NCBI GenBank assembly: GCA_036245525.1
Contig: BTPG01000005.1
Coordinates: 180,268,698-180,332,697 of the forward strand
Direction of reading: 5' to 3'
DNA from: Semisulcospira habei
Taxonomy: Eukaryota; Mollusca; Gastropoda; Semisulcospiridae
Length of the DNA: 64,000 nucleotides
The notes under the pieces were generated by a model. It did no database searches, was not told the origin of the DNA, and saw only the letters and a list, made by a program, of their open reading frames with translations. Below are positions 1,635 to 61,795 of the stretch, in pieces (positions within the stretch are counted from its first letter, which is position 1; the number at the start of each line of letters is the position of its first letter). The position numbers and the translations under genes are program-made.

Positions 1635-1636
1635 TT

Positions 1637-1695: not shown

Positions 1696-1700
1696 TTCAT
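1635..1700. repeat. (ATTT)n microsatellite
   Basis: About 15 tandem ATTT units lie just upstream of the copy A last exon. The C paralog (52615-52640) has only three or four units, so the array expanded after duplication. Confidence 0.9.
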
Positions 1701-1721
1701 TCGTATTTTATTTGCGCTGAG

Positions 1722-2148: not shown

Positions 2149-2154
2149 AATAAA
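2149..2154 (+). promoter_or_regulatory. Polyadenylation signal AATAAA, copy A
   Basis: AATAAA lies 232 nt after the copy A stop. It is conserved at 53091-53096 behind the C copy, which supports it as the original 3' end signal. Confidence 0.5.
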
Positions 2155-2260
2155 ATTATAATACAATCACAAAAGATGTAGTTTGATATCTCAAGTATTG
2201 GTTGTACAATACAAGAGAAGATACAGTATAGTTGGAATCTCTATAGCCCCCCCCCACCCC

Positions 2261-2513
<253 letters not shown>

Positions 2514-2849
2514 ACATATATAGATATTTGCCTTTGCTGTATGAATTCTAATGTACTTAATGATTTTCTGTGTATTGCTTTACTTTGCATTTTTACTCAT
2601 TTTATATTTTTGTGCGTACGCGTTATGCGCGTACGTATGTCTGGAGTGCGTGTCCGAGAGCGTGTGTGTATATGTGTGCGTGTGTGTCTAAGTGCGTGCG
2701 TGTGCAAGTTTGTGTTTGTGTGTATGTGTGAGCGTGCGTGTGCCTGTGTATGTGCGGGCGTGCGTGCGTGAGCGAGTGCATACATGCGTCAGTGTGTGGT
2801 ATGTGTATGTTTACATGTCTATGTCATTTATGTAGTAGATGTAGCAACG

Positions 2850-3313
<464 letters not shown>

Positions 3314-3499
3314 ATTCATATCAGTTCATAACCTAGGAATCAAAGTGTGTCCGCTTTGATAGTCAGGTCCACTGAGATAAGCTCTTTGTATTGTTTGAAT
3401 TCTAATCTTTACTGATAAGCAGTTTAAAACGGAGAGCCCTGAGGTCGACCTTTTTCTTTAAACAAAACGAAGGCTGCTTTAGACATCATTGCGGTTCAG

Positions 3500-3630
3500 G
3501 GTAAGGGTCTACCATGATAGTTAAAGGGTAGTGCCTGAATAGCTGGGCGCCTATAGGCGCCCAGCTATTCAGGCACTACCCTTAAACTGTCATGGTGGAT
3601 CCTTCTCCTGTTGTAGTGTGTCGGGGATTA
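3500..3630. repeat. PAL-A MITE, short variant
   Basis: The arms are ACCATGATAGTTAAAGGGTA and its inverse, meeting at GGGCGCCTATAGGCGCCC. The outer ends are degraded. It lies 150 bp upstream of the B start codon; a paralog lies upstream of D at 53480-53612. Confidence 0.75.
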
Positions 3631-3779
3631 GCGGGTTTTTCATGCAGTGACCTGCATGTATTACATTGACGTGCGTTTTTCACAGCCTCCTTTGGCAGAA
3701 AAAACATAGCCCAGTACAGAGAGTAATTTATGGTTCTAAGTCAACACGAAGATCACCATTCCAATAAACAGTCATAAAG

Positions 3780-3963
3780 ATGAGATCGATTTTTGTAAAT
3801 CTGGCAACGGTTGTGTTGTACTTGCTGACAGCAGGGAGATGTGAGGATGTTCAACCTGTCGTCTCCACACGCTACGGACAACTCCGGGGATTCAGGACCT
3901 CCGTGGGAGACAACTCGTACGTGGACACGTTCCTTAGCATCCCGTACGCCAGACCACCTACAG
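3780..3963 (+). CDS. Gene B exon 1: signal peptide and N-terminus
   Basis: The exon has 61 codons plus 1 nt. [19 protein letters not shown] is a typical secretion signal. The mature start then reads [11 protein letters not shown] and IPYARPPTG, the conserved first strand and loop of the COesterase fold. The donor is ACAG/GTAAAC. Confidence 0.9.
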
Positions 3964-34913: not shown

Positions 34914-37900
34914 CTGTGAGCCAAAAATAAAATGTACCTTGTAGTAACGTAACATGTCACTGAACACCACAAAGAAACAAACACACAAAGGCACATTTAT
35001 CGTTTTTGTAGTTCAGTATTGTTTCAACTATTCAAGATGTCATGTTCAGGTATGTATGATATAATAATAACCATTCACACACAACCTTGCATGATCTATT
35101 GCAATGAGAAGTATTAGTCACATAACACATTTAGCCCAAAAGTCGAAAGTTGTGCTCCGAAGACTATGGTAGTATAAGAGTGGTTCCAGAATATTCTGGT
35201 GCCTCTTTATTGACAACACCCTTGAACTATCATAGTCGAATAATATCTTGTTGAGTGTGTCAGGGCTAAATGAGTTAAATCCAAACCAAAAAGATTTAGC
35301 CCTGACGCACTACAGCAGGAGATCAATAGACCATGATAATTCAAGGATAGTGCCAGATTAGTTTGGCGCCTGTCGGCGCCAAGCTAATCTGGCACTACCC
35401 TTGAATTATCATGGTCGATCCATCTCCTGCAACAGGTACATAGTCGTTAGATGACGCCTCCAAAATTTGGGAAATACGTGCTTGGGGTTGAATGAGTTAA
35501 CATGATGAAAAAAATATCCAACACCATATTGGGGAGTACGTCGGCTTTACTAGCCTATGTAATATTTGACAAGATGTTTATTAATCTTTATTAATGGTCA
35601 TTTATTATGTTTATTAATGTTTAAAAATAGACATACAAAACAAGGACACAATTTATATCTTTTCGTGATGGGAAGTGACAACTGACGGTTGCCACTTCCC
35701 AGCACGAAGAGATAAGTAGCAAATTGTGTATTTTTATGTCTGTTTTGAAAGATAAATTGTTTTGTGACTGTCCTTTCTAAGCGTGCTTCTTTCTTCGTTG
35801 GGAAGTTCTGTAAATGAGCTAAGAATGAAGCATACTGTGCGTAAGTAAACTGAATATGCTCGCAAGATTCTAACCTGTACTCCTCGACACTGCAACACTT
35901 CGTTGCAAGCAGAATATCAGCAGTTTTTGTTATCGTCATGTATTTGGTAAGAATGTGACGCATGCATGGATCCGACGCTTGATCCCAGCAAAAGTCAATC
36001 CCGTTAAGAACGTGTGGATAGAGACTTCGTAGTTTTGGCACGCATTTCTCGCCAAACAACTGAGGGGGGACGCGGCGCAGGATGTCCCAGAGTTTCCGCG
36101 CTTTGTCCTTGCGGGTCTTTTCCGTCCTGACTTCTTCTTCTTCACTTTCACTGATGGCGCCGAGCGATCGGAGATCGTCCATAAAGCCTGATTCTATGGG
36201 CTCCAAGCATCGCAAGAACTCAGGGTGAATTTTTTGCAAAAATGCGTCTTTCTCGGTGAACATCTCAACGACTGAAAGCAGAGAAAAAGATGGAAACGTT
36301 TTCACTTTTTCCCCTCTTCTTCTCAGTCTTTCTTTGTTTCCTAAAAAGGACTGATATGTCTCTGATTCTGCCACATGTGGATAAGCGAAGTCTGTGAGTC
36401 AAAAGGGTTTTCAACGTGATTTAATACGTCAGCTCAGTCAAGTATTACACAATATAGCGGAGCTGAACCGAAAAAAAAAATCCCTATTGCCCTTGCTGAT
36501 TATTAGTTCTGTTATTTTCTAGTAGTATGTCTCTAAAACTAATACATAGTTGTGCGAACCATCGAGTGTGCATCATCGTGTGTGCATCAAGACATTGTCC
36601 CAAAACGAACTGAGCACCATTCTACAAAACATAAACACTGAAACCCAACTGAAGCATAGATGTATACCATTTTCCTGTGATCCCTTCATACCGGTGTCCT
36701 GTTCGTCCGTTGTCAAATCATCCAGTACTGCAATGTCTTCTGGTTGTACTCCAGCAGAATCAGACAACCAGTCCTGTACAAATGTTCCTGTAACAGAGAA
36801 ACCATAAACATTTGTATGTTCCTTGTATGAATCCTTAGAGCGGTAAGGACGTTGGTGCGGTTGTACCGGCGGTGTCGAGTATTATAACGTTATCAAAGTA
36901 GACCGATACCACTGGAGTATGTCAGTATTCTTGGCCCACTCTTTCTTGAGGTGTGTGTGACTGAATGTAGTACATGTATGTAGTATTTGTATATTCCATT
37001 TAACCCTACGGGCGCATTTTGGATGAATCACCTAAAGATATTGTGCCAGCTGAAGGAGATGGGTTGACCATGATAATTCAAGGGTAGCGCGAGATGAGCT
37101 TGGCGCCTACAGGCGCCCAAGCTCATCTGGCGCTACCCTTGAATTATCATGGTCAATCCATCTCCTGCTGTAAGGCGTTGGGGCTAAATGGGTTAAGTTA
37201 CCTCGAACTGAGCTGATGGTTGAATCTGTCACATCCTCAAGATGCTGCCCGGTCGACATGATCTCTTCAGAAAGCCTCCCGCATTCTTTATCTGCAAATA
37301 GTGCATTTAGACATTGAACCCTCTTTCAATTATCTTATTTCGAGGGTATCATCGTGGTATTGTAGTTCGATGAAGATGATTATGAGACCGGCCCTCCGAA
37401 GGCGGAGACTGAACATTTCTGTGTCAGTGCTACACAGAGGACGCGACTCTTTCATGATAGGCTACTACTTCCGGTCGTGCAGTGGAGCGCTTGATTTTTG
37501 CAGCTAGACTGCTTGACTGGATACGTACCTAGATTCATGCGGGATAACAGATTGCGGATTGGCCGGCAATGATTCTAGGAGGTAGGCAAAGGGGTATTGA
37601 ACCCTCTACAATTTTAAAGTGTTGACCAATCACAGTTGGGTCCGAAAATGGACTGAATGCGCGGCAATATATATCGTAGTACTCACTGTACTGGTAGCGC
37701 GAAATGAAGAAGCAATCAGCAGCTAAGTTGTGAGAGTAAAAATACGTTTTCTCGACCCAGGTTTGTGATGATAGACGCAATGTTCAATATATCCGACGTC
37801 GAAAGAACCCTACAGTACATTTACCATTCTATTTTGGTTCTTCGAAAAGAGTGGATTTCAAGGCACCTGCATCCGTCAATAGCTGTGAATGTTTCTCATA

Positions 37901-43631: not shown

Positions 43632-44066
43632 AAATGGCTGAGCTCGCGTGCCGCGCCCTGTCTGACGCATACAGTTGGCGATAAAGTTCGGTTCATACGG
43701 GGAATCCCAGTTCTATAAATATGCCGACTTTTGCAAAATAAAAAAAGAAAGGAAAAATAAATACATGAAACCATTTACACAAAGACCTAGATCATGCATG
43801 CGATTCCAAACGTTATTTCAAGTGTCTGTTAGCTCTTCTTCTTATCCAGTTACAAACGAATCTGGAACTCGTAATCGCCCAGTCAGTCTGAGTACGCAGA
43901 CAGTCGTAGCAGGGGAGATAATTTAGCTCAGTGTTTTAGTACAGTTGCACCAATTTCCCCCAGCACGCCCGCAGGCCCAGTATTTAGCGATGCTGCTGGT
44001 GCCAGAGCGAGTAATGCGTAAGCCAATCGGCGAAAGGCACGCCGAACACACCCCTAGGGGTGTGGG

Positions 44067-44074
44067 TATAAATA
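44067..44074 (+). promoter_or_regulatory. TATA box of the LTR-type element
   Basis: TATAAATA in GGGTATAAATAACGGTGCC. Transcription from about 30 nt downstream would place the hairpin array in the 5' leader. Confidence 0.5.
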
Positions 44075-44260
44075 ACGGTGCCTAGCGAGGGCGGGTAGGC
44101 ATGATGAAGGATAGAATAAAGCGATGCGCGTACATCAGCAATAGTCAAAATAAACCCCCTCCCCCCCATCCCCCGCCCCACCCCCCCTGGACGAAATCGG
44201 CGAAAGCTGGAAGTCCCGATCCCTTTCTAAAATAGCATAGCATAGCAGGGCGGGTAGGCT

Positions 44261-44692
44261 TTCCCGCAAGGGAAGACTCTGTTCTGCGAAGAACATTAAA
44301 TAGTAGTAAGGTTCCCGCAAGGGGAAACTCTGTTCCGCAAAAGAACATTAAATAGTACTAGGCTTCCCGCAAGAGAAGACTCTGTTCTGCAAAGAACATT
44401 AGTAAGTTAGAATTCCTGTAAAGGAATACTGTCCAGCGATGGACCTGTAATTAATTAGAATTCCTGTGAAGGAATACTGTCTAGCAATAGACGCATAGTT
44501 AAGCTGTAATTCCTGTAAAGGAATACTGTCCAGTAACGGACAGACCGCATGGTTTAGATAGTCCCGTAAAGGACTCGGTTTAAGTGTAGTTGTAGCGCTT
44601 CGTCCAGAAACGGACGAGTGTTATCTTCTCTAGTCCCGGAAAGGACTACCCAACAATCCCGAAACGGATTCGCCTTTGTCCCGCAAAGGACA
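44261..44692 (+). other. Array of 17 GNRA-tetraloop hairpins
   Basis: Consecutive hairpins lie at 44261, 44281, 44311, 44332, 44363, 44384, 44412, 44431, 44460, 44479, 44509, 44528, 44560, 44601, 44631, 44655 and 44677. Most stems are 5-6 bp; a few are 4 bp or carry a bulge or mismatch. Every loop fits GNRA (GCAA, GCGA, GTAA, GTGA, GAAA, GGAA). Examples are GTCCA-GCGA-TGGAC, GTCTA-GCAA-TAGAC and ATTCCT-GTGA-AGGAAT. The first twelve form six ~48-nt double-hairpin units (three with CTTCCC/GTTCT stems, three with ATTCCT/GTCCA stems). The last six hairpins have an A/C, C/A or C/C apposition under the tetraloop. A structured RNA element is implied; its function is unknown. Confidence 0.85.
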
Positions 44693-44969
44693 TTTATGAT
44701 TAATTAAGTAGGTAATTTAAGTACTTAGTTAAGTGAGTTTTTGACCTATAGGACTGGGTATTAGAATTTGGTTTTTACTTGTGTCAGTTATTACGTCTAG
44801 TGTGTAGGCTAGTATAGTTTTGGGTTTATAGGGTCTAATGAGTAGGTAAGCATAGTTACGATTTCAGGTGTCTTATGAGCGTCTGTATTATTGTGTTTGT
44901 TTTATGCTACAATGAATGGCTTTTGATATGTCTCAGATCATGACTGATAATGAAATGTATGTACTGTAA

Positions 44970-44975
44970 ATAAAC
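44970..44975 (+). promoter_or_regulatory. Polyadenylation signal AATAAA of the LTR-type element
   Basis: ACTGTAAATAAACCTACAGC, 278 nt after the hairpin array. It suggests the array lies within an R region transcribed at both RNA ends. Confidence 0.4.
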
Positions 44976-46033
44976 CTACAGCACTTATAGAAATCTCATC
45001 ACTGAGAGTCAGAGATTGATGAAATGCGAGAACGGATGCGAGTCAGTACTGATGTTTGTACACGTTTCAGTGTGTGATGATGGCAGCGCAAGAGTGTGTG
45101 TAAGTACGTGTGTGTGTCAGTGAGGCTGCGAACATGCTGAGAGTTTGTTAACGTACTTAGCTTATCAGTTTAGTGTGGCACACATGGCAACGCACGCACA
45201 GTCACTACTACGATCATATCAACTAGGGTTTCGCTGGATACTGTGGTAGGTCCATTGCGCGATTTGGTATTTTGAACACAACGCGAGGCAGACACACGTA
45301 TTTTGTGAGTGCGCATGCGAGACCAGTGTAAAAGACTTGTGAAGATTACACTCCACAGCAATCTCCAGACCCTTCCCTAAACCTAAAAAGGGAACGGACT
45401 TAAAAGGTAGCTAAAACTGAACTAGACTGGCACTACTGGACTTGTACGTTGGATGGGCAGTCCATTGAGGTCTGACCATCTAATACACAAGCCAGCCAGG
45501 CTAGTAAAAGGCTATCTAACCAGAGTCCGGTTACACAGTAAAGAAATTCGATTCATTCGGGGAGTCCCAGTACCATATTAGTGTAGATTTTCAAACTCAG
45601 TCTGAAAACGACATACTGCAGTTACTAATGCCTTGGGTTTTAAAATATGATTCACTGGCGAACTGGAATAAAAGATATGCATAAAATAAATGTCTTCATA
45701 TAGATATGAAGAGCGCAGCGAGGATATTAGAGCGCAGGACTAGGCTAAGGATCCCACAGTCTATTTTTAACTTCGTTGGTAAACAGTCAGTTTGCAGTGC
45801 ATCCATATTTAATCAATCTGCGGTTTTGCTTTTTGTTTAGTTTTTATTTGACGTCAGTCATTTATATATATTTAACGTACTTACATTATAGGTGTAACAG
45901 GTTTCGATTATCGACAGTCTCTCCTTCCAAATGAGTGTTAATTACTGACAAAACTGGAGATCAGTTGTGAGATCAGTATTCACAATGGCGTAGTTTCTGT
46001 CCTACCCGGAAAGTGTTTTGATTGGTTGATGTG

Positions 46034-46716
46034 TGCAACAGGCCAAGGAACACAGTACCTTTTCTGTACTGTCCAGTCTCTTAGCCATAGTCAGTCCCAG
46101 GCATCCCCTAATATTTCAATCCCCTAAAATACACTACCGCCCACCAGCTGCACATTTGCCATGCACAAAATAACAACAACAATAAACAGCACATTGACTG
46201 TCTCATTTCTTGGCTATGAACCTGATTCGTTACCAACCCCCACACCAAGCACAGCTGAAATCAGCGTGCCCCTCAAATCACTACGTCAACGGCAACTCAA
46301 CATAGGCCCACAATTGCCCACTGGATAAGCTCAGGATTAATAATTACGGTATTTATAATGCGCTTATCTTATAATAATTTTAACTCTAAGCGCGCACTCA
46401 CAACTCGCGCACGCATGCGCACGCTTTAGACAACGACTCACGTATCACAAATAGTGAGATACATTACGACAGTCAGCTTGGGGTGGGGAGTGTGGTGATA
46501 TAGTGCTAGAACTGTTGAAAGAGGTGAGTTTTGTGAGGATGGTATGAATCAAAGCACCAAACATGTCTCCTCTCATCTAACCAGAAATTTCCTGCAAATT
46601 CCAACATTCAGCCCTACTACAAATTTTCAAACAAGACAAAAATTATTTTTAAAAACACTGGTCCTTGCACTGCCTCAACTTCCCAATTTGAATATGTATC
46701 ATGACCTGAAGTGATG
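46034..46716. other. ~680-bp block present only in the right unit
   Basis: Alignment to the left unit breaks between TTGATTGGTTGAT and GGTCGCTGGCACGCTGTGT. The block is A/C-rich, has GCGCGCACTCACAACTCGCG and no recognisable coding sequence or terminal repeats. It is either an insertion here or a deletion near position 90. Confidence 0.55.
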
Positions 46717-46805
46717 GTCGCTGGCACGCTGTGTGGCAAGCAGGCGTCTGTCACATGCATATTGATATACAGTATTAAAGTCTTGCATCCATTTTGTCCC
46801 AGGTG

Positions 46806-46853
46806 CTATAGGAATCAGCGCGACTAAAACAGCTGCCGAAGGCAAAGGGCTAG
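46806..46853. repeat. PAL-C half element
   Basis: Only the right arm remains (TATAGGAATCAGCGCGACTA.. to GGCAAAGGGCTA). The full palindrome survives in the left unit at 201-290. Confidence 0.65.
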
Positions 46854-47010
46854 GTTATTTTTTTGTAAGTCATTGGAACATTTTTTAGCTTGTGCTGGGG
46901 ACACGAGGGTTGATTCACAAAGTTATCCTTTTAAGTCTGACCTGGGAGCTCGAGAACACCACTATAGTATATGATATTGCAGCACACTAGTTCGCTAAGC
47001 AGAGAACAAG

Positions 47011-47387
47011 CATGGACCAGACCAACAGCTATTTCAGCTTTGAACAATGTGAAAAGGCACTGATCAAGCTTGCCATGAAACCTACAACAGAAAAGGATGA
47101 CTACCATCTCCTCTCCAGAAAATAACAGGACATCCTTTACAGGCTCCGCACTGGCCACAAAAGACTGAACAGCTACATGAACCTCCAGTTGAAGCTGGCC
47201 CCGTCCTTTTTGACACAAGTGAGAAGTGAAGACAGCTGGACATATACTCCAGCACTGCCCCCTCCCCAACAGAGTGAGAAACTGCGGCTGGCCCGCGGAT
47301 ATGGCACTGCAGTCTTGATTATATGGCCCACGACTACAGGTACCGACGCTCAGAGTCCAATTCATCCAGAACGCAGGCATCCCAATA
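47011..47387 (+). mobile_element. 3' remnant of a jockey-like LINE ORF2 (right copy)
   Basis: MDQTNSYFSFEQCEKALIKL, then AMKPTTEKDDYHLLSRK and, after a stop, LNSYMNLQLKLAPS. Paralogous to 427-823, with independent lesions. Confidence 0.55.
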
Positions 47388-47468
47388 TTAACTCATTCGA
47401 GACGTGCCGCCTCCGGATACGCGGCTTTAAGCCGCGTATCCGGAGGAGGCGCGTCTCGAATGAGTTAA
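47388..47468. repeat. PAL-D palindromic MITE (right copy)
   Basis: TTAACTCATTCGAGACGTGC to GCGCGTCTCGAATGAGTTAA, centre GGCTTTAAGCC. Confidence 0.88.
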
Positions 47469-47609
47469 CAACAGTGCGAACGAGACCATTCCTTACAGAC
47501 TTCACAGTCCGTTAACCCGTTTGCTGTCAGTGATCACGACATGCGCGTCTGAAACCACTAGACTCAGACCGAACAGGTATGTAAATGGGATCAAACTTAG
47601 GCATACAAA

Positions 47610-47722
47610 TTCAGGACTAACAAGAGACATAAATCCTCATGAGCCCCCGCGACTGCGGGGGCTCATAAGGGTTTATGACTCTTGCAGCTGGGTAGCCTTC
47701 GCCTTCGCAGTTATGGGGTTAA
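47610..47722. repeat. PAL-B MITE (right copy)
   Basis: Core CAAGAGACATAAATCCTCAT..CATAAGGGTTTATGACTCTTG around CCCCCGCGACTGCGGGGG. The right end is GTTATGGGGTTAA. Confidence 0.82.
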
Positions 47723-48238
47723 AGGAAAAATATGTTTCAAGTTAATTTTTTATACACGAACAGTTCGGGACAGGTTTGTGTGCGATAGCACGATTTACAT
47801 ACTTACGGGAAGCGGATTTAACTTGATAGTTTAAGGGTTGTGCCTGATTTTCTTTGCGCATCCCTTGGCGCCAAAGTGATCAGGCACTGTTCCTTAACTA
47901 TAGCTCTCGATACAGCTCGCACAGCTGGCGATGGAAGCCATTTTGTCAACATCAAAAGTGTTATAAAAGTGTCACCAAAACAACTGGACATTTTGATTTG
48001 GTCTTTTCACTGGTATGCTTTTATTTATGGTGCAGGATCTGCCTCTGCACCCACCATCTCATGCTGTCTTGGTCATACCTTATACTAGGCTGGTGCTTCT
48101 GTTGGTAATTGGATCTATTGCCTGTCACTGGTAGCTTTATACACGCAGTCAGACATATACAAATAACAACAAAATGACGTAATAAAACACATTGCTACTG
48201 TACATAGCTCAGTCACTGTAAAAGTACATGTTACACAG

Positions 48239-48424
48239 GTTTCCTAAGCACGGAAGACGGTGCCAGTCCCGGGTATTATGGATTGTGGGACATTATCCGG
48301 GCACTTGAGTGGATCCGAGACTCCATCTCCGTCTTCAACGGCGATCCCACTGACATCACCATCTTCGGCGAGAGTGCAGACAGCGTGCTCGTGTCTCTCA
48401 TTCTACATTCCCTGGCGGCTAAAG
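48239..48424 (+). pseudogene. C exon 4, GxSxG lost
   Basis: It encodes [20 protein letters not shown], then GDPTDITIFGESADSVL. Gly to Asp in the nucleophile elbow would disrupt the tight turn. Donor AAAG/GTTGCT is weak. Confidence 0.88.
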
Positions 48425-48549
48425 GTTGCTTTTTCAAACAGGAGAAATTGAAAACCATTTCAGCATATTTATTCTTGCTATCCTATATACACTGCGACCG
48501 TTTAACACACATAAGGTTTAAATTTACAAATTAAGACTTGTCTCGGAAG

Positions 48550-48680
48550 ACATTTCAGAGATAGATTGATCATGATAGTTCAAGGGTGGTGCCAGAATAG
48601 CTTGGCGCCTAGAGGCATCATCCTTGACATAATATGGTCGTTCTCTCTCCTAATGTATCACGTCAGGGCTGAATTTGTCA
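48550..48680. repeat. PAL-A MITE, right arm damaged
   Basis: GATAGTTCAAGGGTGGTGCC..GGCGCCTAGAGG, then a shortened return arm (CATCCTTGACATAATATGG). Confidence 0.65.
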
Positions 48681-48848
48681 ATTGCTTGAATAGTACGAAC
48701 ATTGGCTGGTTACATTTGTGAATGTTTGTTATTGCCGGCCATCTGCCGTGTATTAAGCATTGCCCATAGAAAACGATGTCAGGTGGGCTTTACCCCACAT
48801 GATCGTTCTGCATTTGGAACGTGCATTGTTTTTAATGCATAAAAAGGG

Positions 48849-48960
48849 TTAATAAAGTCACAGGTCCTGATGAGTGCCTGCAACTGCGGGGGGATATGAG
48901 GATCTGTGCCGTGTGCAGTCTGGCGGTGTTTGCCTTGTCCTGCCAGTGAAGAGCTTGTTC
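48849..48960. repeat. PAL-B MITE, degenerate
   Basis: GTTAATAAAGTCACAGGTCC, then CCTGCAACTGCGGGGGGATA and GAGGATCTGTGCCGTG. Confidence 0.5.
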
Positions 48961-49013
48961 AAGTGATTCTGCATGCCGTTCAGTCGGATGATATTTCTTG
49001 GCTTACTTGACAG

Positions 49014-49219
49014 GTCTTTTCCACAAGGCTGTGATGTAGAGCGGATGCTCGCTGACGTTCTACACAATGTCACACCCTTTTTTGGACCCTAGGCCGAAGG
49101 AGCACGCCAGAAAATTGGCGCAGGCTATGGGGTGTGAAGCAAATGACACACGCCAGTTGGTGGCCTGTCTCAGAGAAAGGGACGCCAAGGCCATCGTCAA
49201 CGCCACTGAAAAAACGAGG
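49014..49219 (+). pseudogene. C exons 5+6 as a single exon, with nonsense codon
   Basis: GLFHKAVM, stop, SGCSLTFYTMSHPFLDPRPK, EHARKLAQAMGCEANDTRQL and VACLRERDAK. Length 206 nt equals 97+109 of B exons 5 and 6. TAG at 49037-49039 replaces CAG (Gln). Confidence 0.9.
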
Positions 49220-49237
49220 GTGCGTGTGAAGACGCAC

Positions 49238-49281
49238 TGGTTGTAGCGGTAGCGAATCAGCGGAGACAACCGGTGTGCTGA
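49238..49281. repeat. PAL-F remnant
   Basis: Only GCACTGGTTGTAGCGGTAGC-GAATCAGCGGAGACAACCGG survives, 18 bp after the C exon 5+6 donor. Confidence 0.45.
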
Positions 49282-49354
49282 CAAGATCGAAAGTTGAAAC
49301 AGGAAGCGCGACGGACTCTCAACAGTAAATCGATTGAGAGAAATTATTCCACAG

Positions 49355-49570
49355 TTAACCCGTTAAGTGCCCAGAAAATGTGAACACCACGCAACAGCAA
49401 GAGGCATAGGTCCTCATGAGCCCCCGCAGTTGCGGGGGCTCATGAGGATCTATACCTCTTGCCGACATCACTTTGAATCCATGTTCCTGGGGTATGTAGG
49501 GTGTTTTGGTCTTGAAGTAACGAAGATTGCAGAATTGCGGTCTGCGTCAGCTGGCACTGAACGAGATAAA
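49355..49570. repeat. PAL-B MITE, full length (C intron)
   Basis: TTAACCCGTTAAGTGCCCAG opens it. The core is nearly perfect (GCAAGAGGCATAGGTCCTCA and inverse) around CCCCCGCAGTTGCGGGGG. Confidence 0.85.
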
Positions 49571-49629
49571 CATTAAACATTACATGTTGGTAAGATCCGA
49601 CCTCCACCTGACCCTCTCCAAACACACAC

Positions 49630-49643
49630 CATCACACACACAG

Positions 49644-49683
<40 letters not shown>

Positions 49684-49692
49684 ACACACTCA

Positions 49693-49745
<53 letters not shown>

Positions 49746-49752
49746 ACAGATA
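49630..49752. repeat. (CA)n microsatellite
   Basis: About 110 bp of CACA with a few CT/TA breaks, followed by GATAGAGAG. Confidence 0.93.
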
Positions 49753-49885
49753 GAGAGTCTTTATTTATCAAACGGGCCTCTCTCCTCCAGTTTAAACTAC
49801 TGACAGAAAGAGAGGTGATTATGAGAAAATATTTTAGTGTGATTAGGCCTACAGACAGCTTCGCAAAGACCTGTTTTTGTTTTAT

Positions 49886-50093
49886 GTTACCTCATTGTGC
49901 GCGAGGTACCCACATTTTGGAGTTATCCTCTGAGGACTGCATTACAATTCAGGAGACAGATCGATCATGATAGTTCAAGGGTGGTGGCAAAATAGCTTGG
50001 CGCCTGTAGGCGCCGAGCTATTCTGCCACCACCCTTGAACTATCATGGTCGAGCAGTATTTTGTTGTGGTGTGTCGCGGACAGAATGAGTTAA
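49886..50093. repeat. PAL-A MITE, full length
   Basis: TTACCTCATTGTGCGCGAGG to GCGGACAGAATGAGTTAA. Core of the GGGTGGTGGCAAAATAGC subtype around CGCCTGTAGGCG. Confidence 0.85.
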
Positions 50094-50165
50094 ATCAACA
50101 ACAACAAAAAACTGTTTCACCTACACTGCACCAGTAACAACAAAAATCTGTGTACCGATTGACAG

Positions 50166-50337
50166 GGCCCTGGGCTGGCTATAACACCCTTCAAACCTGT
50201 AGTGGACAGTGCGTTTGCTATGCATGGCGTCCTCTTAGATGCTCCGCTGACCTCCCTGAAAAACGGTCTCTTCTCTAATGTGTCTACCATACGAGTTTTC
50301 ACAAAGGACGAGGTCGTACATGCTGTGATATCGATGG
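50166..50337 (+). pseudogene. C exon 7
   Basis: It encodes GPGLAITPFKPVVDSAFAMH, then [19 protein letters not shown] and ISMG. Intact; 172 nt as in B. The donor is ATGG/GTAAGT. Confidence 0.85.
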
Positions 50338-50354
50338 GTAAGTCAGTGAAACAC

Positions 50355-50355
50355 T

Positions 50356-50420
<65 letters not shown>
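50355..50420. repeat. (CA)n microsatellite
   Basis: A run of 30 or so CA units begins about 18 bp after the C exon 7 donor. Confidence 0.93.
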
Positions 50421-50422
<2 letters not shown>

Positions 50423-50467
50423 AAAACGACAACAACAACAACACACTACAGCGGGAGATAGATCGAT

Positions 50468-50812
50468 AGTAAGTGTGTTTCTTTCTTTATTGGGTTCTTG
50501 TTTGTGTTGTAGCTGTCTTTTCTAAGCGTGTTTCTTTCTTTCTTTGGGTTCTTGTTTGTGTTGTAGCTGTCTTTTCTAAGCGTGTTTCTTTCTTTATTGG
50601 GTTCTTGTTTGTGTTGTAGCTGTCTTTTCTAAGCGTGTTTCTTTCTTTATTGGGTTCTTCTTTGTGTTGTAGCTGTCTTTTCTAAGCGTGTTTCTTTCTT
50701 TATTGTGTTCTTCTTTGTGTTGTAGCTGTCTTTTCTAAGCGTGTTTCTTTCTTTATTGGGTTCTTCTTTGTGTTGTAGCTGTCTTTTCTAAGCGTGTTTC
50801 TTTCTCCGTTGT
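50468..50812. repeat. 53-bp minisatellite in place of C exon 8
   Basis: About 6.5 units of AGCGTGTTTCTTTCTTTATT-GGGTTCTTGTTTGTGTTGTA-GCTGTCTTTTCTA. Each unit has a pyrimidine tract and TTGTAG, which mimics a splice acceptor. Confidence 0.92.
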
Positions 50813-51170
50813 GTTCCGGCTTTTCTGCATTTTACACGTTTGGAAGTCACCGTTTGGTCTGGATGTAGTTATAATGCAGTCTTTAAAAACGGCTAATTAT
50901 TTTCAGATATCTTGTTATACATGCGTCCAACACTTGGCATACATGAAGATTGATTACTTTTAATTAGATATCATATGTGTGCCTCTAAATGTCATAACTA
51001 CTATTTTTGTGATTTTTTTTTTTTTTTTTCCGTCTGGCACGATGTATGGGCACGTGTTCTTTTATAGCCAGAAGAAGAGATTCATTCTGTACATTGACGC
51101 ACATCATAAAATCGTCTTTTTCCACCTACGACTGTTTCTTTTGGTACTCGGTGTACTTGCACTGATGCAG

Positions 51171-51303
51171 ATGTATAACGACTTCGCCGTGATTTTCCCC
51201 ACGACTCGCGAGCTTCAGCTGATGACAAAGTTCCCCGTGAAGCCCCAGTATCTCTACCGCTTCTCCTATATGTTTTCAAAAAGCCTCCTGCCGTCTTGGG
51301 CGG
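51171..51303 (+). pseudogene. C exon 9
   Basis: It encodes MYNDFAVIFPTTRELQLMTK, then [18 protein letters not shown] and PSWAG. Intact, 133 nt; the acceptor is GATGCAG and the donor GGCGG/GTACGT. Confidence 0.88.
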
Positions 51304-51461
51304 GTACGTACACCTTTCAGGTGTATAATTTAGAATGACAATATTGTATGGGTCATATGCCTTGTTCAGCCCGGTCAGATATGCCCCTTCACCGTTTCAG
51401 TTATCATGATGAGATGTATTCGTCTGTCATTTTCTACCTTACGACTCTCTTCCAGACTGCC

Positions 51462-51641
51462 TTAACTCATTCAGCCCAACGACCGTATAATTTTAGAGGC
51501 TATGCACCAGTTGCAGGAGATGGATCGACCATGATAATTCAAGGGCAGTGCCAGATTAGCTTGGCGTCGACAGGCGTCAAGCTAATCTGGCACTACCCTT
51601 GAATTATCATGGTCGACCCATCTCCTGCTGTAGTGCACCAG
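51462..51641. repeat. PAL-A MITE, fused to PAL-B
   Basis: TTAACTCATTCAGCCCAACG on the left. The right end is cut at TAGTGCACCAGGGC, where a PAL-B begins. Inner arms read GGCGTCGACAGGCGTC. Confidence 0.85.
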
Positions 51642-51800
51642 GGCCCGGTGAATGCTACCGACCTGCAAGAGACATAAACCCTCATGAGCCCCTGCAGTTG
51701 CGGGGGCTCATGAGGGTTTATGTCTCTTGTTAGACCTATGTTCTGTATGCCTGTTTTGGTCACGTTTACATCTGTGTTCGTCTCGCGAATGTCGATAAGT
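51642..51800. repeat. PAL-B MITE, left end missing
   Basis: Core CAAGAGACATAAACCCTCAT..ATGAGGGTTTATGTCTCTTG around CCCCTGCAGTTGCGGGGG. It carries the AAACCC/GGGTTT arm subtype, changed symmetrically. Confidence 0.82.
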
Positions 51801-51965
51801 GTGCAGTCGTGTCAGTCCAAGTTATCTTCTGGTTATATCCGAAGTTTGTTATAAGCGAACGGACGTCTTCAAACGTTTTGTTATATCTGACTTTTCTTAT
51901 GTCCGACCTTGCTATGAGCGACGTAGGCTGTAATTTATTCTCAGTCTTATTATTTGCTCGTGCAG

Positions 51966-52119
51966 GTGCAGGACATGCCGACGAACTCCCGTATTTGGCC
52001 GGTTCCCCAGTGAGAAATGTTTCTTTCCCTGGGTACGATCCGGTGTCCAGCTGGACGGACGAGGACAGATGGATGTCGGAGAATATGACGACTCTTTGGA
52101 CAAACTTCGCTAAATATCG
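51966..52119 (+). pseudogene. C exon 10: catalytic histidine
   Basis: It encodes GAGHADELPYLAGSPVRNV, then SSWTDEDRWMSENMTTLWT and NFAKYR. This exon shows the Trp codon that is TGA in B. The donor region TATCGGGTCAG has one extra base; splicing at GTCAG gives an immediate TGA. Confidence 0.88.
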
Positions 52120-52257
52120 GGTCAGACCGACATGTAGTAGTTGTTTCCAGCGTACAGCGTGTTTGCCAGTGTTTCTCATTACGATTCACGGTCCAACGGT
52201 CAATCCTCTTCACGTAGAGCGATCACTCCTTCGTCGAGACGAAGCGTCCTCATTCCG

Positions 52258-52350
52258 CAAAAGGTCATCGAGCCGACGTCGGCTGCAGTTGTCCCGCGCA
52301 CTGTCGTGCGCGGGCCAACTGCGGCCGACGTCGGCCCTATTGTCTTTCAC
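52258..52350. repeat. PAL-E palindrome, full length
   Basis: GAGCCGACGTCGGCTGCAGT and its inverse, inner GTCCCGCGCACTGTCGTGCG-CGGGCC. The best copy of the family. Confidence 0.88.
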
Positions 52351-52663
52351 GCGCTGGGGTGAACGCCCTGGTTTAACGTGGTGGAGCCGTGCGAGCTAAC
52401 GTGGTATGAAAGATGGCAAAGGAGCATCAAAATTTAGAACGAAGGGATTCAGAGTCGAAGGGATTCAAAGTTGAGAGATGTGTGGACTTTCATTCTTTTC
52501 GATTGCCGTTTGGTTTTAACATTGTACTTTAACTTTTGTTTTCTATGTTTGCGTTGAGCACGACTATGTTATAGGCTAATGACATGTTGTGTTATAACTG
52601 TCATCCTGTGCTTTTTTTTATTTATTTATTCATTCATTCGTATTTTATTTGCACTGATTGCAG

Positions 52664-52856
52664 TGACACTACCTATGGTGGTCTGAACGGTGTTCAGTGG
52701 TTGCCATGGACGCAGGCCACGCCCACTTTCCTGGACATTGACCTGCCCTTGAAAATGCGCAACTCTAGTGACATCATCACGCCAGAACTCAATTTGTGGA
52801 TCGACGTTATTCCTAAACTAGTCACTGACTATAAGTCAGCTAATGTCAGCGTATGA
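52664..52856 (+). pseudogene. C exon 11: C-terminus
   Basis: It encodes DTTYGGLNGVQWLPWTQATP, then FLDIDLPLKMRNSSDII and LWIDVIPKLVTD. Open to TGA at 52854-52856. Paralog of copy A exon 11, without A's nonsense codon. Confidence 0.88.
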
Positions 52857-53090
52857 CGATTTCAGCAGTTGAGATAATGTTCAAAGCCGATAAGGGCATA
52901 CGGAAACAAAACAATTGTTATATTGCATCAACGGACTACAAATGAATGCGGAATGATTTATCTTCAGTGTGTTGATGTAAGATAATGTTTGAAGTTTCTG
53001 TATCTTCTACGGTCAACGTATGCATTTTTTTCCTGATCGGCATGATTAATTAAAATATGGCAAATGAATTTCGTGCCTGCAGACACGGTG

Positions 53091-53096
53091 AATAAA
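53091..53096 (+). promoter_or_regulatory. Polyadenylation signal AATAAA, copy C
   Basis: 235 nt after the C stop, in the same context (GGTGAATAAAATT) as copy A. Confidence 0.5.
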
Positions 53097-53178
53097 ATTG
53101 TAATACAATCACAAAAGATGTACTTTGATATCTCAAGTATTGGTTGTACAACAATACAAGAGAAGATACAGTACAGTT

Positions 53179-53311
<133 letters not shown>

Positions 53312-53479
53312 TCAGTTCATAACCTTGGAATGTAAGTGTGTCCGTTTTGATAGTCAGGTCCACTGAGATAAGCTCTTTCTATTGTTTGAATTCTAATCTT
53401 TACTGATAAGCCGTTTAAAACAGAGAGCCCTGAGGTCGACTTTTTTAAAAATGATGTCTGCATTAGACATAATTGCGGT

Positions 53480-53612
53480 TCAGGGTAAGGGTCTACCATG
53501 ATGGTTCTAGGGTAGTACTTCAATAGCTGGGCGCCTATATGCGCCAAGCTATTCAGGCACTACCCTTGAACTGTCATGATGGATCCTTCTCCTGCTGTAT
53601 TGTGTTAGAGGG
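53480..53612. repeat. PAL-A MITE, upstream of D
   Basis: ACCATGATGGTTCTAGGGTA pairs with TACCCTTGAACTGTCATGAT. It has more mismatches than its B-side paralog at 3500-3630. Confidence 0.72.
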
Positions 53613-53755
53613 TTAGCGGGTTTTTCATGCAGTGACCTGCATGTATTACATTGACGTGCATTTTTCACAGCCTCCTTTGGCAGAAACATAGTCCAGTACA
53701 GAGAGTAATTTATGGTTCTAAGTCAACACGAAGATCACCATTCTAATAAACAGTC

Positions 53756-53945
53756 ATGAAGATGAGATCGAATTTTGTAAATCTGGCAACTGTTGTGCTG
53801 TACTTGCTGACGGCGGGGAGATGTGAGGTTGTTCAGCCTGTGGTCGTCTCCCGCTACGGACAACTCCGGGGATTCAGGACCTCCGTGGGAGACAACTCGT
53901 ACGTGGACACGTTCCTTAGCATCCCGTACGCCAGACCACCTACAG
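53756..53945 (+). CDS. Gene D exon 1: signal peptide and N-terminus
   Basis: [20 protein letters not shown] and GRCEVVQ, then [19 protein letters not shown] point change in the B 5' UTR (CATAAAGATG against CATGAAGATG) explains the two-codon difference in start. Confidence 0.92.
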
Positions 53946-56900
53946 GTAAACATGTAATACTGTTGACTCACAGGCAGTAGTGGTGCTTTTCGGATCCGTC
54001 TGAAGCAGTTCTGACTGATGCATAGGCAAGTTCAGAATGTGCGAGTTCCAGTTTCTGTCAGCTCTCAATTTTACAGTACAAACGACTGTAAACAGCTAAA
54101 TACCGTACATAATCTAACGTTCGACTGAATGTCTTTTGATTTGGGCCATACCTCACGCCATCAGCCTCCTGCTGTCAGTCTCTAGAAGCAGTCAAGGAGT
54201 GCGAGTTTGACATCACTCAAATGATTCACCGCCCATCGGCTGTCTTTATTCAGTAACTCCGACACATAACAATATGAGAATCGACCATGATAGTTCGAGA
54301 GTTGTTCCAGAATAACTTGGCGCCTACAGGCGCCAAGCTATTCTGGCACCACTCTCGAGCTATCATGGTTAACCTGTCATGAAGTTTAGTCTTCTGGTGA
54401 CGTAGGGCTCAGTGTGTTCAGCTCTAACTCCCCCCACCCCCCACCCACCCTTATTCGTTGGGAACCTGGCGGTAGTCAGGGTGTGAACTGAGTGTGCGGC
54501 GTGAAAAGGGTGCAGAATTTGTGTATGGAACGTTTTGTGACTGCGTTAAAATTGGACTAATTGTTTTCTTGTACACCTCCTTTTTTGCTGCCTTTGAGCG
54601 GAAAAGCTGTATCACGCACGAGATCTTTAAAACCGTATCCTACTAGCTTTCGCTAAAACCACTAGAGGGGGAATTCTCAGTATCCCCGAAACACCGATGT
54701 AAGAATCTATGTTAGTAATTGCTATTGTCATTTGTCGGTGCCCCGTCTTTGAAGTCATCATTGTTTTAGAAAAAAAAAGTTGTGCCCGAAACGTCTAAAG
54801 CTTTCCTTATCCGAGACCTTTATTCCCACGCAGGTGAGCTGAGATTCCGTCCCTCCCAGCCCCCCGTTGCGTGGACAGGTATCCGTGACGCTATAGCCTT
54901 TGGATCCCAGTGCCCGCAGCCGCCATGGCCTTTCGGGTCGCCCCTGCAGGTCACGTACCCCAACAGTGAGGACTGTCTTCAGCTCAGTGTCTACACGCCT
55001 AAGGTGATGTTCAACAGTGTTGCATTTAATAAGCCATTTGACTGCTGAGAAAACCGAACACCACCCATCTGCAAGAGACATAGATCCTCATGAGCCCCCG
55101 CGACAGCGGGGGCTCATGAGGATCTATGTCTCTTGATGAGACCAATTTGCATCAATGTTCCTTGGACGGCTGTGGCTTTCGGTCGCTAAATAAACGAAGA
55201 TTTCTTAACAAAATATACTTACAGTGGCAGGGAAGGGGTTAATGTAAGCATTGGCCTGTGATGGTGGACATTTTGGCTGACAGTCTCTGTTGCTGGTGTC
55301 CGTTAACCCATTCAGCCCTGACGCACTACAGCAGGAGATGGGTCGACCATGATAATTCAAGGGTCGTGCCAGATTAGTTTGGCACCTGTCGGCGCCAAGC
55401 TAATCTGGCACTGCCCTTGAATTATCATGGTCGATCCATCTCCTGCAACTGGTGCATAGTCATTAGATGACGCCTCCAAAATTTGGGAAACACGGCCGTC
55501 GGGCTGAATGAGTTAACCTGTGGTGAGGTGTGCGTATATCTGCATCCTTATTACCTCTACGAGACCGGGGTCATCATCATCATCATCAGTCCCTTGCCCG
55601 AACTGGGCGTTGGGGGGACTGAAAGGCAGCAGCAACAGACAGTGCTCTCCACTGAGTTCTATTTTGGGCGGTGGCAAGCAAGTCTGGCATCTCTAGTTCG
55701 GTCCATTCTTTTATGTTTGCGACCCAACTCTTTCTCTGACGACCTCGCCGACGACTTCCTTCGAGAGTGCCTTGGAGGATAGTCTTGGACAAGGTGTTGT
55801 GTCGGGTCACGTGGCCAAACCAAGCAAGCTTGCGCCGTTTCACGGTTGCCAGAAGGGGTTCATGTGGGCCCACCAGGGAAGTGACGATGCTACGTACATA
55901 TTCGTTGGTCTTGTGCTCGCGGTACGAGATGTGGAGCAACTTCCTCAGGCACTTGTTCTCAAAGGCCTGGATTTTCTTTTCTGAGTCTGCAAGCAGCGTC
56001 CAAGTCTCACAGCCGTAGAGTAGAATAGACACTACGAGGGACTTGTAAAGCCTGTACTTGATGGTGAAGCTGATGGAGTTACTTCGCCATATCCTGTCCA
56101 GCCTGGCCATTGCGGATGTTGCTGTACCTATCCTGATACGGATCTCTGCTATGCAACTACTGTCTTTGGACAGGGTGGCTCCCAAGTACTTGAAGCTATT
56201 GACCTCTTCTAGCTTCTGGCCGTTCATGTGAATGTTGCTGCTGCTGTCGCTTGTGGTGTTGATCATCACTTTGCTTTTATCCGTACTGATCTCCATGCCA
56301 TAAGACCCTGCGCTACTTGAAAGTTTGTCTGTCAGGTTTTGCAGCTCACTATTGCTGCCTGCCATGAGGTCAATGTCGTCTGCGAATCGAAGATTGCACA
56401 GGGATCTGCCACCAATAGAGATTGAAGTATGGTGGTCGTGGAGGGTTTCCTGCATGATCTTCTCCAGGAATATGTTGAAAAGGACAGGAGAGAGCAGGCA
56501 TCCTTGACGGACACCGATCGTCGTCCTGAAGAACTCGCCTGACTGATTGTTAAGTAGAACCGCGCTGCAGGCGTTCTTGTAAAGCGCTTCTATCATTTGG
56601 ATCAGCCCCTCCTCTATGTTGAACGATCTCATGACTTGCCAGAGTCCGTCGTGCCAGACGCGATCAAATGCTTTCCTGAAATCAATGAAGTTGTGGTAGA
56701 GTTCGCGCTGATGCTGCAGATGTTTCTCGATCAGGACGCGGCAGTTGAAAATCTGCTCTACAGTGCTTCTTCCAACTCTGAAGCCAGCCTGTTCTTCTGC
56801 CAGCAGTTCCTCGGCGAGACCGGGGTAGCTCAAGTGTATTGAACTGTTTATACATCTACTTAAAAAGTGTCTTATTACATCTACGGGAGGTTCCACTCTT

Positions 56901-59265
56901 GTCCTAAAGGTCACGGGTTCCAAGCTAGCTTGTGTCAAAAGTTGTTCAGACCCTATTCGGTGCCCATCACCTTCGTGGTGAACTAAAGATATTAAGCACA
57001 AAGCGGTTGTTTTTTTTTTTTTTTTTGTATTATTATTACCACTACAAATCGGCTTCGGTATAACTCTGTATCTGGAAGCCACGCAGTTGTGTTCGCTTTG
57101 GTGTTGCGTTTAATTCTCCAAGTTTATGAATGAAGTAAGCAAAAGGTCCTCCAGATTGCGCGTCAAAATTATTGGCCCAGGCATGGCTGTCCGCAGCGCA
57201 AGCCAACTAAGACCGACGCAACGAGGACCCTTTGCGCATCTACTTTGAACATCTACTTGGCAGCTAGAGACATGCCCGTGTTGTAACCGGCTCAGCGCTA
57301 TACTGGTGCACGGAAATCTGAGACCGACACCTCTCTGTACCCTATAGGTCTCATCAAACAGAGAAGGGCTGCCGGTGATGGTATGGGCTCACGGCGGCTG
57401 GTGGGTTGGGACGGGGAACACTTTCAACGGCACACAGCTGGCGGCCCGAGGGGTGGTGGTTGTCACCATCAACTTCAGACTCAGCACGCTAGGTAAGTCA
57501 GCAGCTGATGTTGTTGTTTTACGTGTTTGTAGTTTTTGCTGAAGATAACGCACCGTGGGACAAGCAATAAGTGACACTGGTTGTTTCCCACGATTCGCTG
57601 TGCTGATCAGCGTAGCGAATCGAGGGATACAACCAGTGTGGCAACATGTTTCAGGTGTAGACAAGTTACCTGTGAAGTCAGTGAAACTGAAAGGGCAACG
57701 GGGAAGGGTGGTGTAAGTGGGATAGTCCAGTGTTTTGTTTGGGAAATCTTTGCATCCAAAACATTGAGCACACTGACGGAACCGTACTTTCCACACACAC
57801 AAAATGTCGAACGGCATGGACGGGGGAGGGGGCGTTGCCCCTGCGTTTAACTCGCGCAGTGTCTAGAAATTTGAACCCCATCCAACTGCAAAATATTACA
57901 GATCCTCATTTTCCCCGCAGTTGTGGGTACTCATGAGGATCTATGCCTCTTGCTGACACTACTTAAAGCCATGGTTCTGGGACATCTAGGAATTTTGTTG
58001 TTGTTGTTTTAAATTAATGAAGACTGCAGAAAAACAGTCTGAGTCAGCTGGCACTGAATGGAATACAAATGGCACCCGAATTCAGAACCACAGAATAAGT
58101 CTAAACGATCGAGTCATAATAAACCACCACCACCCCATCCCACCTCCCCCTCCCCCGAAATATTCAAACAAAGTCAAAAACAATAACGGCATCAAAATCA
58201 ACAAAATATTTCCTCGCAGGCTTCCTGAGCTCGGAAGATGGCGCCAGTCCCGGAAACTACGGATTGTGGGACATGATCCGGGCACTTGAGTGGGTCAGGG
58301 ACTCCATCTCCGCCTTCAACGGCGATCCCAGTGACGTCACCATCTTTGGCGAAAGTGCAGGGAGTGTCCTCACATCACTACTGGTGAACTCCCACGCGGC
58401 CAGAGGTGAGTGTAACCCCTTTACTGCCGGCACATGGCAATAATTCATCTCCCAGTTGTAAAAGGAGTAGACCCTCTTGAACTCCCGCAGTCGCGGGGAC
58501 TCATATGGAGCTATGCCGCACGCTGGTCCTATTTAAAGCCCTGTTCGTCTTTTTGATGGAGGTCGACCTGAGATTTTCTGAGAGATGATATTCAGTTGTA
58601 CATACATCAAGCATTCAAGGTCGAAATGAACGTTTCCTCTGAAGATTCCATAATACAGTTCGTGAGACATCTACCATTATAGTTCAAGTGTTGTGCCACA
58701 GTGCTGGCATAAGTCTATTACTATTATGTATATGATAGTCGTGTTCATTACCTGTGTATTTTTCTGTGGGCTGGCGATTGGGTGCCTGATAAGAGGGGGC
58801 AAGGGATCTAACTGTTTGTATATCCAGCGCTGAGTAATTCCCCTTGGTATGTGTTTTACTATTATAGTAATAGAGTTATGGGCTAGGCTATAATTATTGC
58901 AATGATGTTTTTTGACTGCATGCCAGTTCCACCTGCCCAATACTTTAACCTCTTCGCTGACGAGAAAAAGTGAACGATCTATCTGCAAGAGGCATAGATC
59001 CTCATGTGCCCCCGCAATTGGATCTACGCCTCTTGCCCACACCGCTTTGTTATCATGTTTTTTTTTTTTAGACGGCTATGGTTGTTTCGCGCTGAATGAA
59101 TAACAATGTCATAAACACAGTCTGCGACACATGGCAGTGGTGGGGTTAAGGCTTAGTTTAGAATGCGGTTTTATGTATTACTTTTTCTTTTATTAATTAT
59201 TTTAAATCCATCCCATTATAATGTGTGTGTGCGTGCGTGCGTGCGTGCGTGTGTGTGTGAGAGAG

Positions 59266-59322
<57 letters not shown>

Positions 59323-61733: not shown

Positions 61734-61795
<62 letters not shown>

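Follow-up and report, generated by a model that had tools for sequence, protein, structure and literature searches.

GACG stem-loops are located between the PBS and gag, and those of the gammaretroviruses are arranged in pairs. TAR is a stem-loop of the lentiviral R region, while the Xist A-repeat and the roX boxes are tandem small RNA hairpins used as multivalent protein sites; the latter belong to host long noncoding RNAs, have other loops than those considered here and lie outside retroelements. According to the accessible text of one report, GACG tetraloops take part in packaging in alpha- and gammaretroviruses, where the stem-loops are packaging or dimerisation signals (PMC516450). In the lambda phage boxB hairpin the loop obeys the GNRNA rule, and by turning one base out it adopts the GNRA fold (PMC12027372, in its accessible part); for tight binding of the N peptide this pentaloop must be closed by a U-A pair (accessible parts of PMC12027372 and PMC12550061), and related GNRA-fold cases are found in the second of these sources. 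A survey of LTRs, as far as its accessible text goes, gives an R of 10–150 nt in the groups named, places tandem repeats in U3 and records that stem-loops exist in R (PMC3601003). Tandem GNRA hairpins in an LTR were not found among the papers listed in literature searches, most subscription papers being outside their reach.

Here we report on an array of 17 GNRA hairpins in a window (the whole stretch of DNA that was analysed, 64,000 nt) of the gastropod Semisulcospira habei, and on further hairpin arrays elsewhere in the same genome, in the LTR retrotransposon family that we call A and in its sister family B. As with the GACG stem-loops, a retroelement RNA would carry small tetraloop hairpins close to its 5′ end, but the loops of family A are GNRA (none of those tallied is GACG), the hairpins are 6–34 and not a few, and their function is putative. 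The family A array is predicted in R, directly after the cap, unlike the stem-loops placed between PBS and gag, and its close doublets recall the paired hairpins of the gammaretroviruses. The family B loops GAACA and GAAUA obey GNRNA, and the pair that closes them is mostly U-A, as in boxB; here, however, the carrier is a eukaryotic retroelement, the array is long and tandem, and no N-like peptide is known, so that the likeness concerns the loop rule only. TAR and other R-region stem-loops share with these arrays a structured RNA in R, downstream of a TATA box; with surveyed R regions of 10–150 nt and repeats assigned to U3 (PMC3601003, accessible text), a predicted R of ~0.8 kb opening with ~20 small hairpins is unusual. 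We place the array among retroelement leader signals, and the element that carries it is itself ordinary.

The Array and Its Carrier

The features of the locus are as follows (coordinates in the window; strand; evidence in brackets).

43901..43904, no strand: 4-bp target site duplication CAGT, left copy (LTR flanks and empty-site comparison)
43905..45535, plus: solo LTR of Ty3/gypsy family A, TGTAGCAGGGG...CCGGTTACA, the first T being C here (LTR pairs elsewhere in the genome; empty site in paralogue L096)
44047..44064, no strand: 18-bp perfect palindrome CACACCCCTAGGGGTGTG directly upstream of TATA (recurs, with at most 3 mismatches, in many other copies)
44067..44074, plus: TATA box TATAAATA (sequence; LTR copies compared)
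44089..44100, plus: leader GGGCGGGTAGGC, first copy, predicted RNA start region (in 23 copies it begins 22 nt past the first T of TATA)
44101..44247, plus: foreign insert of 147 nt, of SINE/LINE-type look, between duplicated leaders (leader scan)
44248..44259, plus: leader GGGCGGGTAGGC, second copy, abutting hairpin 1 (leader scan)
44260..44692, plus: array of 17 GNRA hairpins, partly in close doublets, a TTCC-type followed by a GTCC/GTTC-type (GNRA scan, alignment, RNA folding; doublets in 54 other copies)
44969..44974, plus: polyadenylation signal AATAAA (sequence; copies compared)
44990..45535, plus: predicted end of R plus U5, approximate boundary (deduced from AATAAA; alignment of 38 sequences)
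45536..45539, no strand: 4-bp target site duplication CAGT, right copy (LTR flanks and empty-site comparison)

The initial annotation, made from the letters alone, had read the run as seventeen consecutive hairpins, each with a stem closed by a GNRA loop, in an LTR-like sequence. A mechanical scan for GNRA loops, in which at least 5 bp were required, G-U was accepted and at most one mismatch, adjoining the loop, was allowed, recovered 15 of the 17 in 44260-44692; the remaining two, read from the alignment, are imperfect, with a bulge in hairpin 4 (near 44333-44351) and a mismatch in hairpin 5 (44362-44379). Six loop sequences are present, namely GCAA, GCGA, GTAA, GTGA, GAAA and GGAA. The run of 17 is thus borne out, and closure of the stem by the GNRA loop holds for most hairpins but not for hairpins 12–17, in which a non-pairing position (A.C, C.A or C.C) lies beside the loop, so that these are strictly 6-nt loops containing GNRA. 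On the plus strand of the whole window 42 GNRA hairpins were counted. The two 432-nt bins that take in the array account for 16 of them, including one at 44197 that precedes the array; no more than 2 were found in any of the remaining bins of the 64 kb, on the plus or the minus strand. Folded as RNA, the array reached −152.2 kcal/mol, compared to −113.8 (sd 5.9) in 100 shuffles (z −6.5); the z of its minus strand was −3.7. Plain tandem duplication, with units of 52 and 48 nt, makes up part of the array. None of 4227 Rfam families matched the window at the gathering threshold.

The LTR-like context was confirmed in the genome, which comprises 1.98 Gb in 507 contigs, eight of those encountered being 178–344 Mb long. 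Exact matches to the 19-mer TTCCTGTAAAGGAATACTG number 223, with no match to its reversed control, and among 100 of the 223 places several are paired ~7 kb apart. Five pairs with this spacing are LTR pairs, 97.9–99.9% alike; the four whose flanks were examined begin with TGTAGCAGGGG and finish with CCGGTTACA (TGTAG...TTACA), with the 4-bp target duplications GTAC, AATG, CTAC and ATAC. After the 5′ LTR of family A, TTGGTGCCGTGACCAGG, presumably a match to tRNA (His), occupies the place of the primer-binding site, and AAGGAGGAGGGAG that of the polypurine tract before the 3′ LTR. In the internal pieces of three copies the Pfam models zf-CCHC, gag-asp_proteas, RVT_1 and RT_RNaseH scored above cut-off and Retrotrans_gag just below it; downstream of RNase H, a scan of L035:951-1799 gave no match to an integrase model and only a zinc finger, below its cut-off. 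Judged by these sequence features, the carrier is an ordinary member of the Ty3/gypsy (Metaviridae) LTR retrotransposons.

The segmental paralogue L096, which lies immediately before the window, provides the empty site, with the two flanks joined over a single CTGT. Since this upstream copy of the duplication has no LTR, the insertion postdates the duplication or entered one copy only. The segmental duplication is long, comprising window positions 1-11000 and 45951-64000 plus L096, with an offset of ~46 kb in its first part. Both of its copies contain a 25-nt tandem repeat with a palindrome in each unit, at 9827-10047 (~8 units) and at 62592-63027 (~17 units; consensus CGCTATAGCGGGGTGAGTGTTGTGG at 62592). 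In the host DNA on either side of the LTR lie two 34-mers, 82% alike (43684-43717 and 45544-45577), each with a GGGGARTCCC core that we take to be NF-kB-like; a reading of them as a host enhancer was dropped, as they are outside the LTR. Among ten ORFs scanned, the clearest pieces of host genes are a CARD-domain ORF (35598-36398, minus strand) and a C-terminal piece of a carboxylesterase (51734-52399, plus strand), the latter just below the Pfam cut-off. A search with the CARD ORF gave 415 candidates, none of them a homologue.

Promoter Geometry and the Predicted R Region

The array does lie between a TATA box and AATAAA, as had been proposed, and hence inside the predicted R region. Leaders were counted in 55 copies including the window, 18 of which have no recognisable leader; in 23 of the other 37, among them both LTRs of some elements, the distance from the first T of TATAAATA to the start of GGGCGRGYAGGC, or of a closely similar sequence, is exactly 22 nt. 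Hairpin 1 of intact LTRs begins 12 nt past the leader start, i.e., 34 nt after the start of TATA. This spacing, combined with ordinary promoter geometry, would place hairpin 1 near the 5′ end of the RNA and make the array the first part of R; judged from sequence, the array should therefore open the R region of the element RNA. AATAAA is found 227–419 nt beyond the array in 42 of the 54 other copies. The 18-bp palindrome before TATA is perhaps a promoter site.

The predicted RNA start is also a place of interruption. In 12 of the 37 family A copies foreign sequence ends at the leader start or 1–2 bases from it: the window (44089-44259), L019, L022, L023, L030, L040, L046, L048, L049, L054, L056 and L064. 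The inserts often have a simple-repeat tail (poly-A, AAG, TAG or AACC). A second, upstream leader, resembling a target duplication of ~12 nt, is present in four copies (the window, L022, L023 and L046), and the same scan found none in the other 8. In family B, the two copies L070 and L103 have interruptions at the corresponding position, and in L103 the duplication measures 13 nt and is of another target sequence. SINE/LINE insertions seem to prefer the start sites of LTRs. Target-primed insertion was ranked above template switching as the origin of the inserts at the leader, since four copies have a leader on both sides of the insert.

Arrays across Family A

Two samples of family A were compared. 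The first consists of 54 copies picked by the hairpin motif itself from 100 of the 223 places, and in this biased sample all 54 have clusters of GNRA hairpins, 5–26 each. The second consists of 20 further copies obtained with an array-free probe, half of the best 40 of 1250 candidates, of which L080 and L081 come from one tandem element; full arrays, with 5–16 strict four-base GNRA loops plus 3–7 xGNRAx, were present in 14 of these 20.

To a stem search blind to the loop, 484 of 503 four-base loops turned out to be GNRA in the sense orientation, and 240 of 255 six-base loops with unpaired ends to be xGNRAx. With a profile of sequence only, the 55 arrays yielded 964 hairpins (6–34 per copy), in which loop position 1 is G in 947, position 3 a purine in 955 and position 4 A in 958, whereas position 2 takes all four bases (C 504, T 336, A 98, G 26). 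With the loop omitted from the profile, 712 of 741 hairpins were GNRA. A third position limited to purines beside an unrestricted second one is the GNRA rule of RNA, stricter than GNNA. Moreover, close doublets account for ~45% of neighbouring hairpins (399/893), mostly a TTCC-type followed by a GTCC-/GTTC-type, and across the copies the spacers differ in length while the hairpins are kept. In the five LTR pairs the arrays are equal in length in three and 2 nt apart in one; in the fifth, the difference in length is due to an interruption of one LTR.

The remaining six of the 20 array-free-probe copies (L089, L090, L091, L093, L094 and L095) have few strict hairpins and form a short-array subfamily, 92.7–98.3% alike in the stretches compared. 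Three of the six were read: they have ~8 hairpins, of which one has the non-GNRA loop GUAG, one is lost and others are bulged, and the GUAG hairpin type is common to six insertions. Two of the six LTRs adjoin RT copies 98–99% identical to those of the long-array elements of family A. As this subfamily has spread with ~8 hairpins, long arrays are not indispensable.

Probable Selection on the RNA Structure

Hairpin types were called propagated when four or more insertions had them; known LTR pairs counted as a single insertion each. In the first set, propagated types were GNRA in 24/24 and had all four core pairs in 22/24; the corresponding values were 19/22 and 13/22 for types in 2–3 insertions, and 76/101 and 49/101 for single-insertion types. 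With the 20 array-free-probe copies included, 26 of 27 propagated types were GNRA and 24 of 27 core-paired, compared to 88 and 50 of 120 single-insertion types. The Fisher p for propagated versus single types is 0.009 for GNRA and 8.5e-6 for pairing, the types being related by descent and kinship being ignored. Simulated one-step mutants of the propagated types kept GNRA in 81% and the core in 48%, close to what the single types show, so that the single types look like neutral decay; in fact, 74 of 101 are one step from a propagated type, with changes over all 14 sites, 2–8 at each.

Among the propagated types themselves, all one-step links but two (at sites 11 and 14) fall at loop positions 2/3 or at the closing pair; two-step links are mostly at the loop positions and closing pair just named, or at the paired positions 1/14, 4/11 and 5/10. 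For the 24 types the covariation score is 0.462, compared to 0.155 for shuffled sets, and is reached by none of 500 shuffles, again with kinship ignored. Eight of the 24 propagated types of the first set have no pair adjoining the loop, and imperfect types were also propagated (GTTCT/GCAA/AAGAA, GTTCT/GTAA/AAGAA and TTCCC/GCAA/GAGAA).

The paired changes in the stems, in which the initial annotation had seen compensation, are therefore real and look selected, as both the shared-versus-private comparison and the covariation against shuffles indicate. Its further argument, that repeat copying at the DNA level would not hold the loops to GNRA as the stems change, stands in one half: shared variants keep their pairs and GNRA, but tandem DNA duplication clearly builds the array. 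It had also named, as evidence against itself, stems decaying without compensation, or loops drifting from GNRA at the pace of the flanks, in other copies; uncompensated decay was found to be mainly private to one or a few insertions, and widely shared variants keep both pairs and GNRA. From these sequence comparisons we conclude that selection very probably acts on the hairpins at the RNA level, in replicating lineages.

A Sister Family with a Different Hairpin

In a search with the RT, the best 150 of 14688 candidates divide into 41 at 93–100% identity (family A) and 109 at 86–89% (family B). Family B has the LTR end and the primer-site sequence of A. No GNRA tetraloop array was found in it; at the same place of the LTR it has 5–10 copies of a ~48-nt unit with a larger hairpin, in which one mismatch separates the outer stem from an inner stem of 6 bp that carries a 5-nt loop. 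The first core lies 35–36 nt after TATATAAA in five copies, and later in L102, whose first unit was missed by the scan. Such an array is present in 7 of the 11 B elements looked at; of the 4 places where it was not found, three had unrelated sequence at the guessed position and one a SINE-like insert. The two LTRs of one B element differ in their number of units, 7 and 6.

Units were admitted only if the three core-adjacent pairs form, so the independent evidence consists of the outer stems and the loops alone. The outer stems are GTAGG/CCTAC, CGAGG/CCTCG, CGAGA/TCTCG and GTGAG/CTCAC, and none of 2000 reshufflings of the 3′ arms reached the observed pairing (14 rows, including one later excluded, by eye, as off-array after the reshuffling). 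The loops GAACA, GAAUA and GCAUA, few in their variants, all follow GNRNA, UCAUA occurring in one unit of one copy; the rule holds in 12 of 13 distinct units. On this sequence evidence, the arrays of A and B seem to agree in fold, position and multiplicity, and not in sequence.

The predicted Gag proteins of A and B are 56% identical in the C-terminal part with the zinc knuckle, 64% in the N-terminal part and 89% in the middle of the capsid (57 residues). Gag divergence would fit co-evolution with the array and proves nothing; the C-terminal value is weak support for it, because the N-terminal part is also just 64% identical.

Of three intermediate RT copies (93, 94 and 95%), L075 has an A-type LTR with GNRA hairpins, and no LTR was found at the guessed place for L073 and L074. 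A third family was sought with an RT of 65% identity, and the best 67 of 16454 candidates lay, as far as compared, at A and B places. In public proteins, 6317 of 7985 scored sequences were RT relatives, full-length matches being at most 65% identical and a single shorter one reaching 81% across 70% of the query. The doublet-core pattern gave 3 matches in IMG/VR, each alone and with no array, and for RT relatives the 7 pattern matches in IMG/VR and 47 in GTDB genomes yielded none confirmed by tblastn.

Possible Functions of the Array

We propose that the R region begins with a tandem array of small hairpins presenting the GNRA loop fold. Transcription would start from the TATAAATA TATA box, with hairpin 1 of intact copies at most ~15 nt from the predicted cap site, and, R being repeated, the genomic RNA would have two copies of the array, one at the 5′ end and one ahead of the poly(A) tail. 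Tandem duplication would alter the number of hairpins, and selection in replicating lineages would keep the pairing and the GNRA-fold loops. Sites that are many and equal at one RNA end suggest multivalent binding; thus the array may be a multivalent platform for docking a protein, most likely Gag through its nucleocapsid and basic regions, and such docking could help to select the genomic RNA, to form its dimers or to nucleate particles, roles like those of the GACG tetraloop hairpins in alpha- and gammaretroviruses. Our best explanation, which we hold to be about as likely as not, is that the GNRA-fold hairpins near the cap form a multivalent array to which, most probably, Gag of the same element docks; that Gag is the main partner we propose tentatively, and rate as slightly less likely than not.

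It is possible, although rather doubtful, that the array is instead a site for a host RNA-binding protein or has a role in translation, export or stability, cap-proximal hairpins restraining scanning or recruiting a host factor and so splitting the RNA between translation and packaging. The predicted cap-proximal position agrees with this, the GNRA fold is common and recognised by many RNA-binding proteins (PMC12027372, accessible part), and the arrays of four copies contain 4–5 ATGs compared to the 8–12 expected from base composition. However, the same four copies have 21–25 ATGs in the 0.85 kb from the array to the LTR end, which already makes simple scanning of the leader unlikely, and the wholesale change of hairpin in the sister family would be better explained by a fast-evolving partner than by a conserved host factor.

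Reverse transcription offers a decidedly less probable function: hairpins in R, at whose very 5′ end the array is predicted, might pause RT and aid minus-strand transfer or annealing of the R copies, with slippage varying the length, as the 7 and 6 units in two LTRs of one B element would allow. Strand transfer, on the other hand, requires complementarity of R and not the GNRA rule at loop positions 3 and 4, and the arrays of the family A pairs are equal in length in 3/5 and 2 nt apart in one, the fifth pair having one interrupted LTR.

Selection on DNA we regard as very unlikely, the palindromes then being bound as DNA by a dimeric protein, or forming hairpins in single-stranded cDNA. Palindromes covary at any level, and a DNA form of the GTAA loop with GNRA-like geometry has been observed (PMC12550061, accessible part); nevertheless, the loops found blind to sequence are GNRA in the sense orientation (484/503), a purine at position 3 (955/964) with all four bases at position 2 is an RNA rule, the half-sites vary (TTCC, GTCC, GTTC, ATCC) so that there is no constant DNA half-site, and family B has GNRNA loops plus an internal mismatch. 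Least credible of all is a functionless tandem repeat, palindromic by chance and spread by amplification, since, despite the tandem duplication of 48–52-nt units, the range of 6 to 34 hairpins per copy by the sequence profile and the propagation of a short, partly broken array, shared and private variants are sharply unlike in pairing and GNRA content and the hairpins persist while the spacer lengths vary.

For a multivalent Gag-docking array, a broader reading may be considered, which we hold as possible but less than probable: in this Ty3/gypsy clade the capped end of the RNA would bear a long multivalent GNRA-fold array that keeps its fold but exchanges its whole sequence, with GNRA tetraloops in one family and GNRNA pentaloops in the other, and would serve as a rapidly evolving code by which Gag recognises the RNA and particle assembly is seeded. 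How Ty3/gypsy Gag chooses its genomic RNA is poorly known; a 2016 review, in its accessible part, describes the structure of Ty3 RNA as uncharacterised, and its localisation and packaging as dependent on UTR or POL sequences (PMC4974528). The genome of S. habei offers dozens of natural variants of a possible packaging-type signal, and families A and B are a ready swap comparison for the preference of each Gag for its own array. Multivalent RNA tags are built by hand by engineers from boxB or MS2 repeats; if each Gag prefers its own array, these elements would provide natural, evolvable multivalent RNA tags.
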